From Bifidobacterium sp. ESL0769 (GTDB lineage Bacteria > Actinomycetota > Actinomycetes > Actinomycetales > Bifidobacteriaceae): 64,000 nucleotides of DNA. Under the pieces are notes generated by a model. That model made no database searches and was not told the DNA's origin. It worked only from the letters and a program-made list of their open reading frames with translations. Position numbers and translations under genes: made by a program. The DNA lies in contig NZ_CP113918.1 in NCBI RefSeq assembly GCF_029395495.1, positions 310,001 through 374,000 of the forward strand, written 5' to 3'. Shown piece by piece: positions 1,752 through 8,748 of this stretch (position 1 is the stretch's first letter; every line of letters begins with the position of its first letter).

Positions 1752-2027
1752 AGTGGCTGGTTTCCTCAGTCAAAAGGTCGGTCGATGGAAATCAAAGAAT
1801 GGCAGTGTTTTGCCGTCCCGGGTTTCATGTCGATCGGCCTTTTTGATATCGACCATTATGGAAACTGTTTCTGAGCGTTTTATCCTTCGCGGCGACGCGT
1901 ACTGATAGGCTTTTGGTATTGGTTGCGGGTTTATCGGTACGGTTGATTCGTAGGTTAGATTATATCTAGTAACGATATAATTCCGTAATTTCGGATGATT
2001 CTTACGCGCGTTGAAAGCAGGTACGGC

Positions 2028-3599
2028 ATGGCTCTGATCGATCAATTCACCACCCAGTATGGACTGGTCAAAAAAATCGACGCATTCGGATATCTCGATT
2101 ACCTGAAAAACCACGCCGATGAGCCGCGCAAGCACGGGCAGGTTGTGCTCGTCACCGCCGATACGCCGCTGAAGGCTTCGCGTGGCGAAGGAAAGACCAC
2201 CACCACCATCGCGCTAATCGACGCGCTGCGTGCCCGTGGCATTGACGCGACCGCAGTACTGCGCCAGCCGAGCATGGGCATCACCGCGGCTGGCTCCAAG
2301 GGTGGCGCTTCGGGCGGTGGCAAATCCTCGCTTTCCCATCCCGAATTGATTGACTGGGGCCTGTGCGGCGAAATGGCTGCCATCGAGAACGCGCAGAACC
2401 TGCTGGTTTCCTTCGCAGAGAAGGCCATTGATGATGGCGTTATCGACACTATCCTCGTGCCGCGCGTCTCCGAAGTGCCGTCGCGCTCGCTGCGTCAGAT
2501 TGCCGTCGACCGTGGTAAGGGCAATGTGCCCGAGCGCGTCGTGCTGACCCCGACCTGCGAGCTGATGCAGATTGTCGTACTTTCCCATTCCATGGACGAG
2601 ATTGCCGAGCGTGTCTCGAAGATGGTCGCTGGCACCAAGGATGGCAACCCTGTCGCTTTCGGCGATTTCATTGACCTTTGGCGCATCACCGGCATCCTCG
2701 GCGATGCGGTGAAGCCGGCGCAGACCGAGACCGTCAACGGTTCGCCGGTCTATGTGCACTGCGGCCCGTTCGCCAACGTGTCGCTGGGCATCCCGAGCCT
2801 GATTTCCGTGGAGATGGCCTGCGCGCTGCACGACGTCGTGGTGGTCGAAGCCGGATACGGCGCCGATGCCGGTGCCCAGAAATGGCTCGACATCGCCTGT
2901 CGCGAGTACGGCGCCGAATGGCCGGCCGCCGCCGTGGTGGTCACCCGTGCTTCGACCTGGCGCGACGACCCGAAGTTGGCCTGGCGTTACCCGTTCCATG
3001 TTCATCGTCTCGAAAACCTTGGTATTCCGACCTTCCCGCTGGTCAATCTCTGGGACGGCGAGGACGACCAGATCGATTCCCTGCGTGACACCGCGAAATC
3101 ATTGGACTTCCGCAACCCGATTATCGGCAACCTCTTCCGTGACGGCGGCGAGGCTTTGGCTCCGCAGCTTGACGCGTTCGTGGAGGCACTTGACGATGCG
3201 AATAACGCCGACAATGCCAACGCGACCAATGCTCCTGCCGATTCCGACGATCCGGAAGCCGCCGACAACCGCGCCAGCCACAAGGGCATGGGCCTGGTCG
3301 AAGACGTGAAGTGGATTGCTGACAACGCGTACGGCGTTCCGGCCGACCGCGTGCTGACCAAACTCGGTTTCGCCGAGTCCCTGGCCGCTGCGACCGATTT
3401 GTGCAACGGTGTCGGAACGAGTATTGATGACCTCGCCGTGGTGGCGGTGAAGTCCCCGGCCACGATGACCGACGATGATTCTGCTGCCACCGACGAGCGC
3501 ACAGTAACGCTTAAGAAAGTCGAGCCGCACCTTGGCGCCGGTGTGGTGCAGGTCAACCTCACCACATCGCTCACTACCCCGATGCCCAAGATCGTCTGA
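2028..3599 (+). CDS. fhs: Formate--tetrahydrofolate ligase
   Basis: Formyl-THF synthetase: formate + THF + ATP gives 10-formyl-THF for purine and one-carbon metabolism. The P-loop-like SRGEGKTTTT lies near residues 49-57, then SMGITAAGSKGGASGGG, a divergent version of the KGGAAGGG region. I chose the ATG at 2028 (523 aa) because similarity begins at MALIDQF; an in-frame ATG at 1995 is possible but adds 11 residues with no family match. The protein is shorter than the usual ~555 residues and diverged. A low-complexity Asp/Asn/Ala stretch (about residues 391-421) interrupts it. The next gene starts 10 nt after the stop. Confidence 0.85.
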   Translation: MALIDQFTTQYGLVKKIDAFGYLDYLKNHADEPRKHGQVVLVTADTPLKASRGEGKTTTTIALIDALRARGIDATAVLRQPSMGITAAGSKGGASGGGKSSLSHPELIDWGLCGEMAAIENAQNLLVSFAEKAIDDGVIDTILVPRVSEVPSRSLRQIAVDRGKGNVPERVVLTPTCELMQIVVLSHSMDEIAERVSKMVAGTKDGNPVAFGDFIDLWRITGILGDAVKPAQTETVNGSPVYVHCGPFANVSLGIPSLISVEMACALHDVVVVEAGYGADAGAQKWLDIACREYGAEWPAAAVVVTRASTWRDDPKLAWRYPFHVHRLENLGIPTFPLVNLWDGEDDQIDSLRDTAKSLDFRNPIIGNLFRDGGEALAPQLDAFVEALDDANNADNANATNAPADSDDPEAADNRASHKGMGLVEDVKWIADNAYGVPADRVLTKLGFAESLAAATDLCNGVGTSIDDLAVVAVKSPATMTDDDSAATDERTVTLKKVEPHLGAGVVQVNLTTSLTTPMPKIV

Positions 3600-4543: not shown

Positions 4544-4897
4544 TCAGAAGTTGCCGCCGTTCCAGCCCCAGTCGCCGGTAGCCGTATAGCGGATGTAGGT
4601 GCGGTCTTCTGGCACGCCGAGTTCGTCGTGAAGCGCGGTCATGATTTGCTTCGTCATCGACTCCCAGACGGAGCGGTCGATGCTGCCGGGCGCGCCCATG
4701 ACATTGACCTCGACATAGGCCGCCGGCTTGGCGTCGGTGCCGCCGAAGTAAATCGGCATATTGTCCTCGAACGGGCACATCAGCCAGCTCTCGGTCTTGC
4801 CGGGAACGGCGGTGATGGCCTTGCCGTACGCGGCCTTGAGCGCCTCGCGCTGCGCCTGCGTGGTGGAAACGGAAACGTGGGTATGGATGACTGGCAT
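4544..4897 (-). CDS. MIF/4-oxalocrotonate-type tautomerase
   Basis: A 117-residue protein of the tautomerase/macrophage-migration-inhibitory-factor superfamily. The start is set at the ATG giving MPVIHTHVSV because Pro2, exposed after Met removal, is the catalytic base in this superfamily; AAGGAACT lies just upstream. The longer reading frame adds 49 residues of unrelated sequence. The central region MPIYFGGTDAKPAAYVEVNVMG and the C-terminal RTYIRYTATGDWGWNG match phenylpyruvate-tautomerase-like MIF proteins. Single gene, converging on the fhs unit. The physiological substrate is not known. Confidence 0.85.
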   Translation of the reverse strand: MPVIHTHVSVSTTQAQREALKAAYGKAITAVPGKTESWLMCPFEDNMPIYFGGTDAKPAAYVEVNVMGAPGSIDRSVWESMTKQIMTALHDELGVPEDRTYIRYTATGDWGWNGGNF

Positions 4898-5225
4898 GAT
4901 AGTTCCTTGCGTTTTGCGGTGAATCGTTATCGTCACTGATATTTTATGACAAGCGTTGTGTATAGCACCACGTTGATTCCATTTCTGGCCTGCTGGTTGC
5001 TTGCGTTCGTGATGCTCGCGTCTGTTCTGGTGTTGTGTCCGCAATCCGGCATTCTGTTCGCCGCATTCGTGTCTCGGTTTCTTTCCGTTTGCAATCGATG
5101 AATGCGTTTGTATGTCAGCTCGTCAGTGCCTTAATGTGGCGGTGGTGCGCAGATTATCGGGGTATTTGGTGCAGAGTATGCCCGCTAGGGCCCTTATCGC
5201 TTCAGTTGTGCGTACATTAAGAATG

Positions 5226-5255: not shown

Positions 5256-5348
5256 AAAAAGTATCAATACATGATACCTAAGGATTTTAAAGCCAATCGC
5301 AACGCGCGAATGTGGTTGACGAAATATGAGGGGAAGGAACGGCAAACG

Positions 5349-8045
5349 ATGAGCGGTAGGCAAGCCCAGGAACCGAGTAGCAGCGTAGCGACGGCCCCCG
5401 GGAAACTGTATATCGCTGGTGAATATGCCGTGGTCGAGCACGGCCATCCCGCGATTCTCATCGCTGTCAATCGACTTTTGACCGCCCGCATCACCGAGCA
5501 TGACGCCACTTCCGCGGTCGCTCAACTCCAGTCTTTCGGCGTCGATCCGGTCGGCCGTATCCATTCCGCAGGCCATCCCGAGGCATCGGTTACCTGGCGA
5601 CGTCGCGCGGGACGTGCGGTGCCTGACGTGGAGCAGCCGGGCGCGGCGTTCGTGCTTTCCGTCATCCACGCGGTCGAGGAATTGGCGCAGCAGCAGGGCA
5701 GAGCCCTCAAAATCTACGATGTCAATATCGAAAGCGAACTTGACGATGCTTCCGGCCGCAAGTATGGCCTCGGCTCGTCTGCAGCGGTGACTGTGGCCAT
5801 GATGAAGGCGCTCACTGCGTTTTACGGCCTCGAACTTGACCCGATTCAGCAGTACAAACTCGCGTTCGTTTCGGCAAGCCGCGCCCAGAAGGTCGGCTCC
5901 GGAGGAGACCTGGCGGCAAGCCTGTTCGGCGGCTGTATCCGTTTCACGGCTGTCGACCGGCAGTGGGTTACCAATCGTTTGCAGGACACCGCGCTGAGCG
6001 ATTTGATCGACATGCCATGGCCGGGGCTGAGCATTGCACGGCTTCGTGCATTTGAGCCCGACAGCAGCTTGCGTCTGATGGTTGGATGGACCGGTAATCC
6101 CGCGTCCACGCCTTCGCTCGTCGGCCACGTCCAGCAGCAGAGCGCCGCCGAACACGAGCGGACGTATCAGGACTTTTTGAGCGGTAGCGATGCCTGCGTC
6201 GACGCGTTGGCTTCGGCGTTGATTCGCAACGACGAACAGGCCGTCATTGCATGCGTGCGCGAGGCCCGAAAGCTGTTGCAAACTCTTTCTTCGTTTACCG
6301 GTGTGACCATCGAAACCCCAGCCTTGCGTGCTCTGGTCGAGGTCGCGGAAAATCATGGAGCAGCAGCGAAAAGCTCCGGTGCGGGTGGCGGCGACTGTGG
6401 CATCGCGATTGCCGGACCGAGTGCCGATTGCGCTGCCATCACACGTGGCTGGCAGGAGAAGAGCATCGTTCCGCTGAATCTTTCGGTGCATGCCCCGCAA
6501 GTCGAGCTCACCGATTGGGCGGGTGGTGTTTCCGCCGGTATGTCTGGTGGAATTGCTGGAAGCGCTCGTGCAGAAGAAAATTTTTTCGAAAGGACCGGCG
6601 GTAGTGAAGGCTCTGGAGTCGGTGGTATCGCAGGTGTTGCCGGTATAGCTGATATTGCTGGTGTCTCACGTGGTGTCGATGGCGTCAGCGGTGCAGGCGC
6701 CGGAGGTGCTAACGGTACTTTTGGTGTTAACGGTGTCACAGGTGCCGCTGGAGCTGGAATTGCCGGTAATAGCGGTGCCGGCATCGCCAGTTCCGGGATG
6801 TCGAATATGTCGGCTCCGAACGTATCGGCAGGTCATGTACTTGGCCTAAATTCGCAGTTCCCTGCTGCCGGGACGAACCGCAAAGACGACCACGTTCGTC
6901 TCGCGCTCGCTGAACATGCGGATATGCAGCGTAATGCATTTGATGATATTGCGTTCGTTCATCACAGCCTGGGCAGTGTTGACGTCAACGACGTTGATAT
7001 GACCACGCAGGTTTGCGGTGCAACGTGGGACGTGCCGTTTTATATCAACGCGATGACCGGTGGATCGGCCAAAACCGGCGCAATCAACGCTTCATTCGCG
7101 CGCGTCGCCGCCGCGACCGGCTTAGCTATGGCCTCCGGTTCGCAGCACGCAGCCATTCGCGACTCGAAACTCGAGCCGACGTTCACCACGATTCGTGAGT
7201 ATGACCCGTCTGGTTTCGTCTTTGCCAACGTCGGGCTTTCCGTGAGTGTCGAGCAGGCCTTGCATGCCGTCAAGATGATTCATGCCGACGCCCTTCAGAT
7301 TCATATCAACGCTGCCCAAGAGCTCGTGATGCCGGAAGGCTCGCGCGATTTCGACGCGTGGCCAGAGCGTATAGCAGCGATCGTGAAGGCTTCGCCGGTG
7401 CCAGTGATGGTCAAGGAAGTCGGCTTCGGCATGAGTGCGCGAACCGTGCGGCAACTGGCTGAGCTCGGCGTGTGCACTGTCGATGTCAGCGGCCGCGGTG
7501 GCACTGATTTTGCCCGTATCGAAAACGCTCGACGACAGGCTCATGAATACGGCTATATGGCCGGCTGGGGCCAGTCCACGGCGTTGTGTCTGCTTGCGTT
7601 GTTGCCGAATAAATGTAATGCACTAAATAATGATAGTGCTAGTGAATTCTCCTCAAATTCCGGTAACGTTACAACCGATGCCAACTTACCCGCCAATGGC
7701 ACGAATAAGACCGGGAACAAAGTGATTGGTTGCGGCGAAACCAACGTGGCCGTGCTGGCTTCGGGCGGCGTGCGCAATCCGCTCGACGTAGTGAAGGCGC
7801 TCGCACTGGGTGCTAAAGCCGTCGGCATTTCCGGCCACTTCCTGCAGGTGTTGAACGCCTCTGGCGAAGACGGCCTGATCGCCGAAATCAACAGCTGGAA
7901 GAGTCAGGTCCGCTCGCTGATGGCCTTGCTCGGCGCGAAAACCGTCGTCGACTTGCGCCGCACAGACCTGTTGGTCACCGGCAAAACCGCCGAAGAAGCC
8001 CGTTTACTTGGTGTCGACCTGTCGACGCTTGCGAAACGTTGCTGA
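5349..8045 (+). CDS. Fused phosphomevalonate kinase / type 2 isopentenyl-diphosphate isomerase
   Basis: One 898-residue reading frame holds two mevalonate-pathway enzymes. Residues ~10-390 are a GHMP kinase of the phosphomevalonate kinase type: APGKLYIAGEYAVVEHGHPA at the N-terminus, GLGSSAAV (~140-147) and a C-terminal KSSGAGGGDCG motif. Residues ~512-898 are a type 2 (FMN, NADPH) IPP isomerase: NAMTGGSAKTG, ASGSQHAA, QIHINAAQE, VKEVGFGMS, DVSGRGGT and a C-terminal SGGVRNP. Between them lies a ~120-residue Gly/Ala/Ser/Val linker. A second low-complexity insert (~754-798) interrupts the isomerase. The start at 5349 has GGGGAAGGAA upstream; earlier in-frame starts lack one. mvaK1 and mvaD are not in this window. 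Confidence 0.9.
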   Translation: MSGRQAQEPSSSVATAPGKLYIAGEYAVVEHGHPAILIAVNRLLTARITEHDATSAVAQLQSFGVDPVGRIHSAGHPEASVTWRRRAGRAVPDVEQPGAAFVLSVIHAVEELAQQQGRALKIYDVNIESELDDASGRKYGLGSSAAVTVAMMKALTAFYGLELDPIQQYKLAFVSASRAQKVGSGGDLAASLFGGCIRFTAVDRQWVTNRLQDTALSDLIDMPWPGLSIARLRAFEPDSSLRLMVGWTGNPASTPSLVGHVQQQSAAEHERTYQDFLSGSDACVDALASALIRNDEQAVIACVREARKLLQTLSSFTGVTIETPALRALVEVAENHGAAAKSSGAGGGDCGIAIAGPSADCAAITRGWQEKSIVPLNLSVHAPQVELTDWAGGVSAGMSGGIAGSARAEENFFERTGGSEGSGVGGIAGVAGIADIAGVSRGVDGVSGAGAGGANGTFGVNGVTGAAGAGIAGNSGAGIASSGMSNMSAPNVSAGHVLGLNSQFPAAGTNRKDDHVRLALAEHADMQRNAFDDIAFVHHSLGSVDVNDVDMTTQVCGATWDVPFYINAMTGGSAKTGAINASFARVAAATGLAMASGSQHAAIRDSKLEPTFTTIREYDPSGFVFANVGLSVSVEQALHAVKMIHADALQIHINAAQELVMPEGSRDFDAWPERIAAIVKASPVPVMVKEVGFGMSARTVRQLAELGVCTVDVSGRGGTDFARIENARRQAHEYGYMAGWGQSTALCLLALLPNKCNALNNDSASEFSSNSGNVTTDANLPANGTNKTGNKVIGCGETNVAVLASGGVRNPLDVVKALALGAKAVGISGHFLQVLNASGEDGLIAEINSWKSQVRSLMALLGAKTVVDLRRTDLLVTGKTAEEARLLGVDLSTLAKRC

Positions 8046-8178: not shown

Positions 8179-8748
8179 ATGTTTCCTGACTTTTTGAGTG
8201 AAGATGCCGAAACCGTGGCGAAAGGGCTGCTCGGCTGCACGTTGACGCGCGTCATCGACGGCGAGACGCTGACGGTGCGCATCGTGGAAACCGAAGCCTA
8301 CGATGAGCTTGACCCCGCGAGCCACACCTTCCACGGCAAAAGTGAACGCAACCGTGCGATGTTCGGCCCGTCCGGCCATGCCTACATTTACCTGATTTAC
8401 GGCATGAATCTGTGTATGAACGTCACCGCGTTCGAGGAGGGCTTCGGTGCGGGTGCGCTGATTCGTGCCGCCGAACCGATGGATACGCGAACCGTTGAAA
8501 TTATCGAAAAACGCCGTGGCGGTCGCCGTATCAAAGATTGTTTGAATGGTCCAGGCAAGATATGCAAGTCGCTGGGCATCACGATGGATCTCTATGGTCA
8601 TAATCTGCGCAAGCCGCCGCTGAGCCTCGAAACCGGTTCGTTGCGCCCCGGCGAACGTATCGAAGCCACGCAACGCATCGGCATCAGCAAGGCTAAAGAC
8701 CGCCCACGCCGTTTCATCATTGCCGGCAATCCGTATCTCTCGCGGTAA
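8179..8748 (+). CDS. mpg: 3-methyladenine DNA glycosylase (AAG/MPG family)
   Basis: A 189-residue monofunctional glycosylase that removes alkylated or deaminated purines (3-methyladenine, hypoxanthine) in base-excision repair. RIVETEAYDE carries the catalytic Glu (E39 by alignment to human AAG Glu125) and the intercalating Tyr41; YIYLIYGMNLCMNVT and GPGKICKSLGIT are family signatures. The length is normal for bacterial members. It lies 133 nt downstream of the isoprenoid fusion, same strand, possibly read through; the ribosome-binding site is weak. Confidence 0.93.
   Translation: MFPDFLSEDAETVAKGLLGCTLTRVIDGETLTVRIVETEAYDELDPASHTFHGKSERNRAMFGPSGHAYIYLIYGMNLCMNVTAFEEGFGAGALIRAAEPMDTRTVEIIEKRRGGRRIKDCLNGPGKICKSLGITMDLYGHNLRKPPLSLETGSLRPGERIEATQRIGISKAKDRPRRFIIAGNPYLSR

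Follow-up and report, generated by a model that had tools for sequence, protein, structure and literature searches.

A fused phosphomevalonate kinase and type 2 isopentenyl-diphosphate isomerase in Bifidobacterium

The enzymes joined in IspDF flank IspE, and a metabolon of IspDF with IspE has been proposed. In the mevalonate pathway, MvaD acts between the steps of phosphomevalonate kinase (MvaK2) and isopentenyl-diphosphate (IPP) isomerase; MvaK2 and the type 2 isomerase (Fni, or IDI-2) thus flank MvaD. One study calls IspD–IspF fusions common 'despite catalyzing nonconsecutive steps' (PMC13001223). The protein described here is like IspDF in that two isoprenoid catalytic domains of non-consecutive steps share one frame. 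IspDF, however, belongs to the MEP pathway and is built from other families, whereas MvaK2–Fni combines a GHMP kinase with an FMN-type TIM-barrel isomerase. Because its halves are MvaK2 and IDI-2, not IspD and IspF, the fused protein is not an IspDF; by analogy, it may be seen as the mevalonate-pathway counterpart of IspDF, which would be its nearest known analogue. The mevalonate clusters of actinobacteria and lactobacilli hold the same enzymes, adjacent (75 of 76 loci) and in the same order, with a 4-nt overlap at 7 of 16 junctions, but encode two proteins with little or no linker. Database entries such as P0017 and P0037 share this fused architecture and carry a name for both activities (ERG8-type phosphomevalonate kinase/isopentenyl-diphosphate delta-isomerase type 2). 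We found no description of an MvaK2–Fni fusion in the open-licence PMC literature, a collection that includes PMC13001223 and PMC10663253, both consulted in extract, and that leaves subscription journals mostly outside.

One frame with two catalytic halves

The window is the whole 64,000-nt stretch of Bifidobacterium sp. ESL0769 DNA that was analysed. An earlier note on this DNA had described 5349..8045 as one intact 898-aa frame, and the region does translate without a stop. The gene, its parts and its neighbours are as follows.

5349..8045, plus strand: fused mvaK2::fni gene, 898 aa (stop-free frame; TIGR01220 and TIGR02151 above their cut-offs)
5334..5338, plus strand: AAGGA, likely ribosome-binding site for the ATG at 5349 (from the sequence)
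5388..6491, plus strand: phosphomevalonate kinase half (MvaK2, GHMP kinase), residues 14–381 (TIGR01220, PF00288, PF08544, Foldseek)
6525..6869, plus strand: Gly/Ala/Ser/Val-rich linker, residues 393–507 (pLDDT below 50, predicted disordered)
6876..8039, plus strand: type 2 isopentenyl-diphosphate isomerase half (Fni/IDI-2), residues 510–897 (TIGR02151, Foldseek, residues)
7614..7736, plus strand: low-complexity Asn/Ser-rich insert inside the isomerase half, residues 756–796 (pLDDT below 50)
4544..5044, minus strand: divergent MIF-like upstream neighbour, outside the mevalonate pathway (PF01187, 24 bits, cut-off 22)
8179..8748, plus strand: methylpurine-DNA glycosylase, downstream neighbour (PF02245, 194 bits)

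The stop-free frame extends 5' of 5349 as far as an ATG at 5112. Homologues begin at the position corresponding to 5349, and 13 of the 32 genomes scanned, the window genome counted among them, have an ATG with AAGGA at the equivalent place. A promoter and terminator scan gave no signal exceeding shuffles.

The NCBIfam model for phosphomevalonate kinase, TIGR01220, matched residues 14–381 with 372.7 bits against a cut-off of 165.7. An AlphaFold2 prediction (five models, 38 aligned sequences) revealed two mostly confident domains, with a mean pLDDT of 77.5 and a pTM of 0.48, at which the relative placement of the two halves is not fixed by the model. Solved relatives of the kinase half are the phosphomevalonate kinases 1k47, 3gon and 3k17, the last from Listeria, and Foldseek searches with the predicted structure gave target TM scores of 0.92 for 3k17 and 0.89 for 3gon. 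The glycine-rich motifs of GHMP kinases, GLGSSAA and SGAGGGDCG, are kept; across 38 aligned proteins, G140–S144, A146 and S343–G351 are invariant and A145 is kept in at least 90%. The N-terminal half should phosphorylate 5-phosphomevalonate.

The isomerase half matched the type 2 IPP isomerase model TIGR02151 with 369 bits (cut-off 281.3) in two stretches, the best of which covers residues 510–750. Its solved relatives are the IDI-2 structures 3sr7, 4n02, 1p0k and 2zru, and its predicted fold aligned to 4n02 with a target TM of 0.95. H652, N654, Q657, E658 and K689 are invariant in the 38-row alignment, and the first four pair with H155, N157, Q160 and E161 of Sulfolobus shibatae IDI-2, which we take to be active-site residues. 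The Asn/Ser-rich insert at residues 756–796 differs in length between relatives. This half should interconvert IPP and DMAPP. The earlier note had held that both halves keep their catalytic motifs, and conservation of the GHMP motifs and of H652/N654/Q657/E658 bears that out. The MvaK2–Fni fusion in the window genome is confirmed as genuine.

Linker and candidate internal starts

The low-confidence stretch of the predicted structure, residues 393–507, comprises 115 residues, close to the linker of about 120 that the earlier note had proposed. The distance between the kinase motif and the isomerase motif ranges from 45 to 177 residues across the 34 fused genomes found in the genus and is 159 in the window genome. 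It is 93–177 in a 12-species clade whose fused gene parted from mvaD, and only 45–46 in six fused genomes. To judge from the other fused proteins that have almost no linker, the Gly/Ala linker is dispensable. A tandem-repeat origin of the linker was rejected, as a search of window positions 6300–7000 found no such array.

The linker frame is free of stops here, as the earlier note had stated, and likewise in all 34 fused genomes: their 3126 in-frame codons include none, whereas the other two frames hold 76 and 194. For the genome pair G000 and G048, the linker had a dN/dS of 0.53, compared with 0.035 for the kinase and 0.08 for the isomerase. The linker had the highest value of the three parts in 8 of 8 genome pairs, although several of its dS values lie near or beyond saturation, so that the ratios can be taken at face value for the closest pair only, and one linker has just 14 codons. 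Selection seems to maintain the frame of the linker more than its letters. One base error could merge overlapping frames, which is the case for a sequencing or assembly artefact that joined two genes. However, the fusion recurs in 34 species genomes with linkers under frame constraint, and an artefact, in effect ruled out by these 34 fused relatives, is exceedingly improbable.

Two ATG codons lie in frame within the linker.

6798..6800, plus strand: in-frame ATG, unsupported as an internal start (no Shine-Dalgarno-like word upstream, not conserved)
6807–6809, plus strand: further in-frame ATG (without a Shine-Dalgarno-like word upstream)

These codons could point to two separate proteins, produced through internal initiation or through cleavage of a disordered linker that, on the structural model, would be accessible to proteases. 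The earlier note had seen no obvious internal ribosome-binding site, which agrees with the lack of a Shine-Dalgarno-like word before either ATG. We scanned 32 of the 34 fused genomes (G060 and G028 were left out), counting as a candidate any ATG, or any GTG or TTG behind a Shine-Dalgarno-like word, that lies no more than 60 codons before the isomerase motif. No conserved internal start before the isomerase was found in these 32 genomes. Five of them (G014, G050, G055, G489 and G528) do have a candidate start with a Shine-Dalgarno-like word upstream of the isomerase, at differing places, but 17 have no candidate of any kind, and production as two proteins is very unlikely.

The residues NPDS stand right before the isomerase start both in the fused protein of G489, which is probably B. 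aemilianum, and in separate isomerases of relatives. This suggests that the kinase tail and the N-terminal extension of the isomerase either gave rise to the linker or are what remains of it.

Distribution of the fusion and placement of the pathway genes

Among 112 genomes of GTDB-Bifidobacterium, MvaK2 (TIGR01220 above cut-off) was present in 34 and fused in one frame in every one of them. Dxr, which marks the MEP pathway, was found in 77 genomes, none of which is among the 34, and had no match in the window genome. One further genome, G526, has MvaD, HMGR and HMGS and no MvaK2 match, which makes 35 mevalonate genomes beside the 77 MEP genomes in this set. TIGR01220 exceeded its cut-off in only two of 396 genomes drawn from across the phylum, the window genome and one with separate genes. 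All 120 proteins among the matches listed (120 of 498) carry both motifs, and at least three of the fused proteins among these matches lie outside Bifidobacteriaceae (P0062, P0035 and P0037); P0062 is Actinosynnema by name and P0035 falls among Actinomyces on the tree.

A scan of 294 relatives gave at least 80 named loci; of the 80 kept, an automatic frame test called 76 separate (75 outside the genus, plus B. xylocopae), 3 fused and 1 with MvaK2 only. The three fused loci are all Bifidobacterium (G054, G532 and G530) and already among the 34. In 75 of the 76 separate loci kept, the two matches lie at most 321 nt apart. We resolved 16 of 17 hand-picked separate junctions, measuring overlap with the candidate start nearest to it: seven overlap by ATGA or GTGA, three overlap by 11 nt and six do not overlap. 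Because the genes of unfused relatives are adjacent and often overlapping, a single frameshift can join them.

Unfused enzymes also occur close to the fused ones. B. xylocopae has a separate kinase of 441 aa that overlaps its isomerase by ATGA. A protein search with this kinase returned further standalone kinases from B. actinocoloniiforme, three Bombiscardovia species and B. aquikefiri, and an isomerase search returned standalone isomerases from B. xylocopae, B. actinocoloniiforme, Bombiscardovia nodaiensis and B. aquikefiricola; the listed isomerase of B. actinocoloniiforme begins only past the N-terminal motif that these proteins usually have, which leaves its real start in doubt. Both enzymes stand alone in B. 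xylocopae, B. actinocoloniiforme and Bombiscardovia nodaiensis. These species overturn the view, suggested by 34 fused genomes out of 34, that the fusion is universal to mevalonate bifidobacteria, while the many fused relatives rule out a strain-specific fusion. The earlier note had asked whether the fusion is strain-specific or clade-wide. Its reading of a real fusion with conserved motifs and no conserved internal start stands, but the fusion is neither strain-specific nor universal to the clade.

The genes mvaK1 and mvaD, which the earlier note had left to be located, lie together on the minus strand of the window genome (family matches at 2144254–2146553, frames at 2144176–2146583), far from the fused gene: the distance is about 1.8 Mb in the numbering of the contig, or about 0.66 Mb across its ends should this single contig be circular. 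The thiolase–HMGR–HMGS operon is at 493178–496852 of the same genome. By coordinates, the fused gene adjoins mvaD in 20 of the 34 genomes and is apart from it in 13; the remaining genome, G060, fits neither class, as it has no mvaD above the cut-off and its fused gene begins where a contig ends. Of the 13, all but G525 belong to a single well-supported clade, which includes the window species; a single separation of the fused gene from mvaD thus seems to account for these twelve.

A separate observation concerns the early mevalonate genes. HMGR was found in 31 of the 112 genomes and HMGS above its cut-off in 31, with a weak match in G506. Both are missing from four mevalonate genomes (G015, G029, G034 and G489), which retain MvaD and the fused gene, the mvaD of G015 being frame-broken; a search of G015, G029 and G034 found MvaK1 above cut-off in all three. 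Both G015 and G029 conserve the genes on either side of the thiolase–HMGR–HMGS operon (88–94% identity), but no trace of thiolase, HMGR or HMGS genes was found between them, and an MFS gene of about 430 aa occupies the site. The MFS gene of G034 is 94–95% identical to that of G029 and adjoins the same downstream gene, where the sister genome G025 has HMGS; that of G489 is at another location. At a threshold of E ≤1e-40, which we chose, a search of the 112 genomes showed homologues in all four mevalonate genomes that lack HMGR, in one of the 31 genomes with HMGR (G512) and in 10 of the 77 MEP genomes. Within the mevalonate genomes, the association with HMGR loss has a Fisher p of 9.5e-5, a value that ignores shared ancestry and likely interspecies gene transfer. 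The closest NCBIfam models, all under cut-off, describe bile-salt, L-lactate and oxalate/formate MFS transporters. The obvious reading of these sequences is that the MFS protein is a candidate mevalonate importer replacing mevalonate synthesis, but the homologues in ten MEP species and in G512 count against a strict link with HMGR loss. A mevalonate transporter is reported to have been evolved from a yeast JEN1 (PMC12405511). The HMGR-less genomes and their MFS gene suggest a candidate importer for mevalonate in bacteria, as well as bifidobacteria with a need for mevalonate.

Origin and possible role of the fusion

To follow the fused and separate states through time, we used two trees. The kinase tree has 95 MvaK2 rows, including B. 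xylocopae (as P0121) and 31 of the 32 other separate loci (L078, [Pseudopropionibacterium] massiliense, was excluded for its excessive length); for database proteins other than that of B. xylocopae, the separate state was read from the protein alone. This tree requires seven changes between fused and separate states, each of them forced by well-supported branches, and the number stays at seven from the 5% to the 95% bound over 200 bootstrap trees. The two-domain tree has 75 rows, drawing on B. xylocopae and 32 others of the 76 separate loci, with G072 left out as its isomerase motif was not found; its labels need five changes, and B. xylocopae is its one unfused bifidobacterial row. A single clade of the 46 fused Bifidobacteriaceae rows was rejected on the kinase tree (p-AU 1e-44). 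On the two-domain tree, a single Bifidobacteriaceae clade that includes the unfused B. xylocopae was not rejected (p 0.086), and the 22 fused Bifidobacterium rows as a clade excluding B. xylocopae were rejected (p 0.00015). The clade groups were defined with a first, quick tree already in view, and these p values should not be read as coming from blind tests. The join, present in many relatives, appears to have arisen, or to have been undone, several times. The simplest rooted account starts from separate genes and has seven gains of the fusion, given that the genes are mostly unfused outside; some of the seven changes could be fission, not fusion, and the long Gardnerella-type branch is placed with uncertainty.

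We think it probable, on sequence evidence, that the protein is a genuine two-enzyme polypeptide that arose by frameshift fusion of coupled genes, and that covalent linkage replaces translational coupling. Ancestral mvaK2 and fni genes would have overlapped and been translationally coupled, a coupling suggested by overlap alone (6 of 16 junctions have none). A frameshift in the overlap would have joined the two frames, and the kinase tail and the N-terminal extension of the isomerase would have become the linker, a tether presumably without a sequence-specific role. The covalent link may then have taken over from overlap coupling in ensuring 1:1 production of both enzymes, with MvaD, encoded at a separate locus, working between the two halves, and the fusion may keep the pair together once the gene has moved away from mvaD. 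The earlier note had pointed out that the two enzymes are not consecutive, in keeping with the established pathway order; as the MvaD step intervenes, the product of one active site is not expected to be simply channelled to the other. Its suggestion that the fusion fixes enzyme stoichiometry around MvaD is possible.

The strongest rival is neutral fixation, in which overlapping genes become joined by frameshift at a noticeable rate, the product is good enough and drift fixes it. Overlap makes joining a one-step event, state changes are recurrent on the kinase tree, and the linker evolves fast and varies in length; its free change, and the near-zero linkers elsewhere, would fit neutrality as well as they fit benefit. 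However, the frame is kept open in all 34 genomes, the gene stays fused in the 13 where it lies away from mvaD, and at least three fused proteins outside Bifidobacteriaceae are set against 75 separate loci outside the genus. We regard neutral fixation as possible, if somewhat unlikely.

Returning to selected linkage, a broader proposal is that MvaK2–Fni fusions in Bifidobacterium, the Gardnerella type, an Actinomyces relative and Actinosynnema are convergent, formed from overlapping genes under selection for coupling around MvaD, as a counterpart of IspDF and perhaps with an IDI-2 octamer whose tethered kinases gather MvaD. This we hold to be doubtful. Its structural element could also stand alone as a metabolon, in which the isomerase octamer would bear kinases on flexible tethers, recruit MvaD and raise the local concentration of intermediates. 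An octameric IDI-2 structure is on record (by the title of 3vkj), the tether is predicted to be disordered, and the fusion is non-consecutive, as in IspDF (PMC13001223). Against this, mvaD is unlinked in the window genome, the linker is unconserved and nearly missing in other fused proteins, and the structural model, with its pTM of 0.48, is silent on the mutual arrangement of the halves; we find a metabolon distinctly unlikely.

Fused MvaK2–Fni could serve isoprenoid engineering as an existing building block. Should selection be what makes the fusion recur, enzymes on either side of a third one would have been joined in both bacterial isoprenoid pathways, and the purpose of such fusions would become testable by comparing naturally fused and unfused sister species, such as B. 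aemilianum and B. xylocopae.

Further features of the window

One feature of the fused mvaK2::fni gene lies in its isomerase half:

Window 7614-7736: Asn/Ser-rich insert of variable length, predicted to be disordered

Elsewhere, the frame at window 1995-3599 is that of a formate--tetrahydrofolate ligase, a divergent or atypical copy whose match spans only positions 43-329 of the 556 in the family profile.

Isoprenoid pathways in the genus

The genus search sample comprised 112 genomes, drawn from G000-G060 (part) and G488-G538. Dxr, the MEP pathway marker, was found in 77 of these and mevalonate genes in 35, with zero overlap. In G015, a single-contig mevalonate genome, the reading frame of mvaD (L163, G015:C1:1891500-1900500) is broken: it contains an in-frame TGA and also changes frame, which may reflect either real decay or sequencing error.

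A transporter at the upper mevalonate operon site

We compared the site of the thiolase-HMGR-HMGS operon at these loci:

L175, G000:C1:486000-503000: locus of the window's own genome
L171, G015:C1:454000-468000: MFS gene for operon
L172, G029:C1:19000-33000: MFS gene for operon
L195, G034:C2:1400000-1415000: MFS locus

In G015 and G029 the conserved site lacks thiolase-HMGR-HMGS and holds in their stead one gene for an MFS transporter of ~430 aa; in G034 the same transporter type adjoins the same downstream gene. In G025, the sister of G034, HMGS lies ~1.36 Mb from thiolase-HMGR as the contig is numbered (L198, L199). Each part is bordered on one side by the sequence that normally flanks the operon, as a rearrangement would leave them.

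Counted at E 1e-40 or better across the 112 genomes, MFS homologues occurred in all four mevalonate genomes lacking HMGR and HMGS, in 1 of 31 with HMGR and in 10 of 77 MEP genomes. From sequence, we consider the MFS protein a candidate mevalonate importer and the mevalonate bifidobacteria lacking HMGR and HMGS candidate mevalonate auxotrophs.
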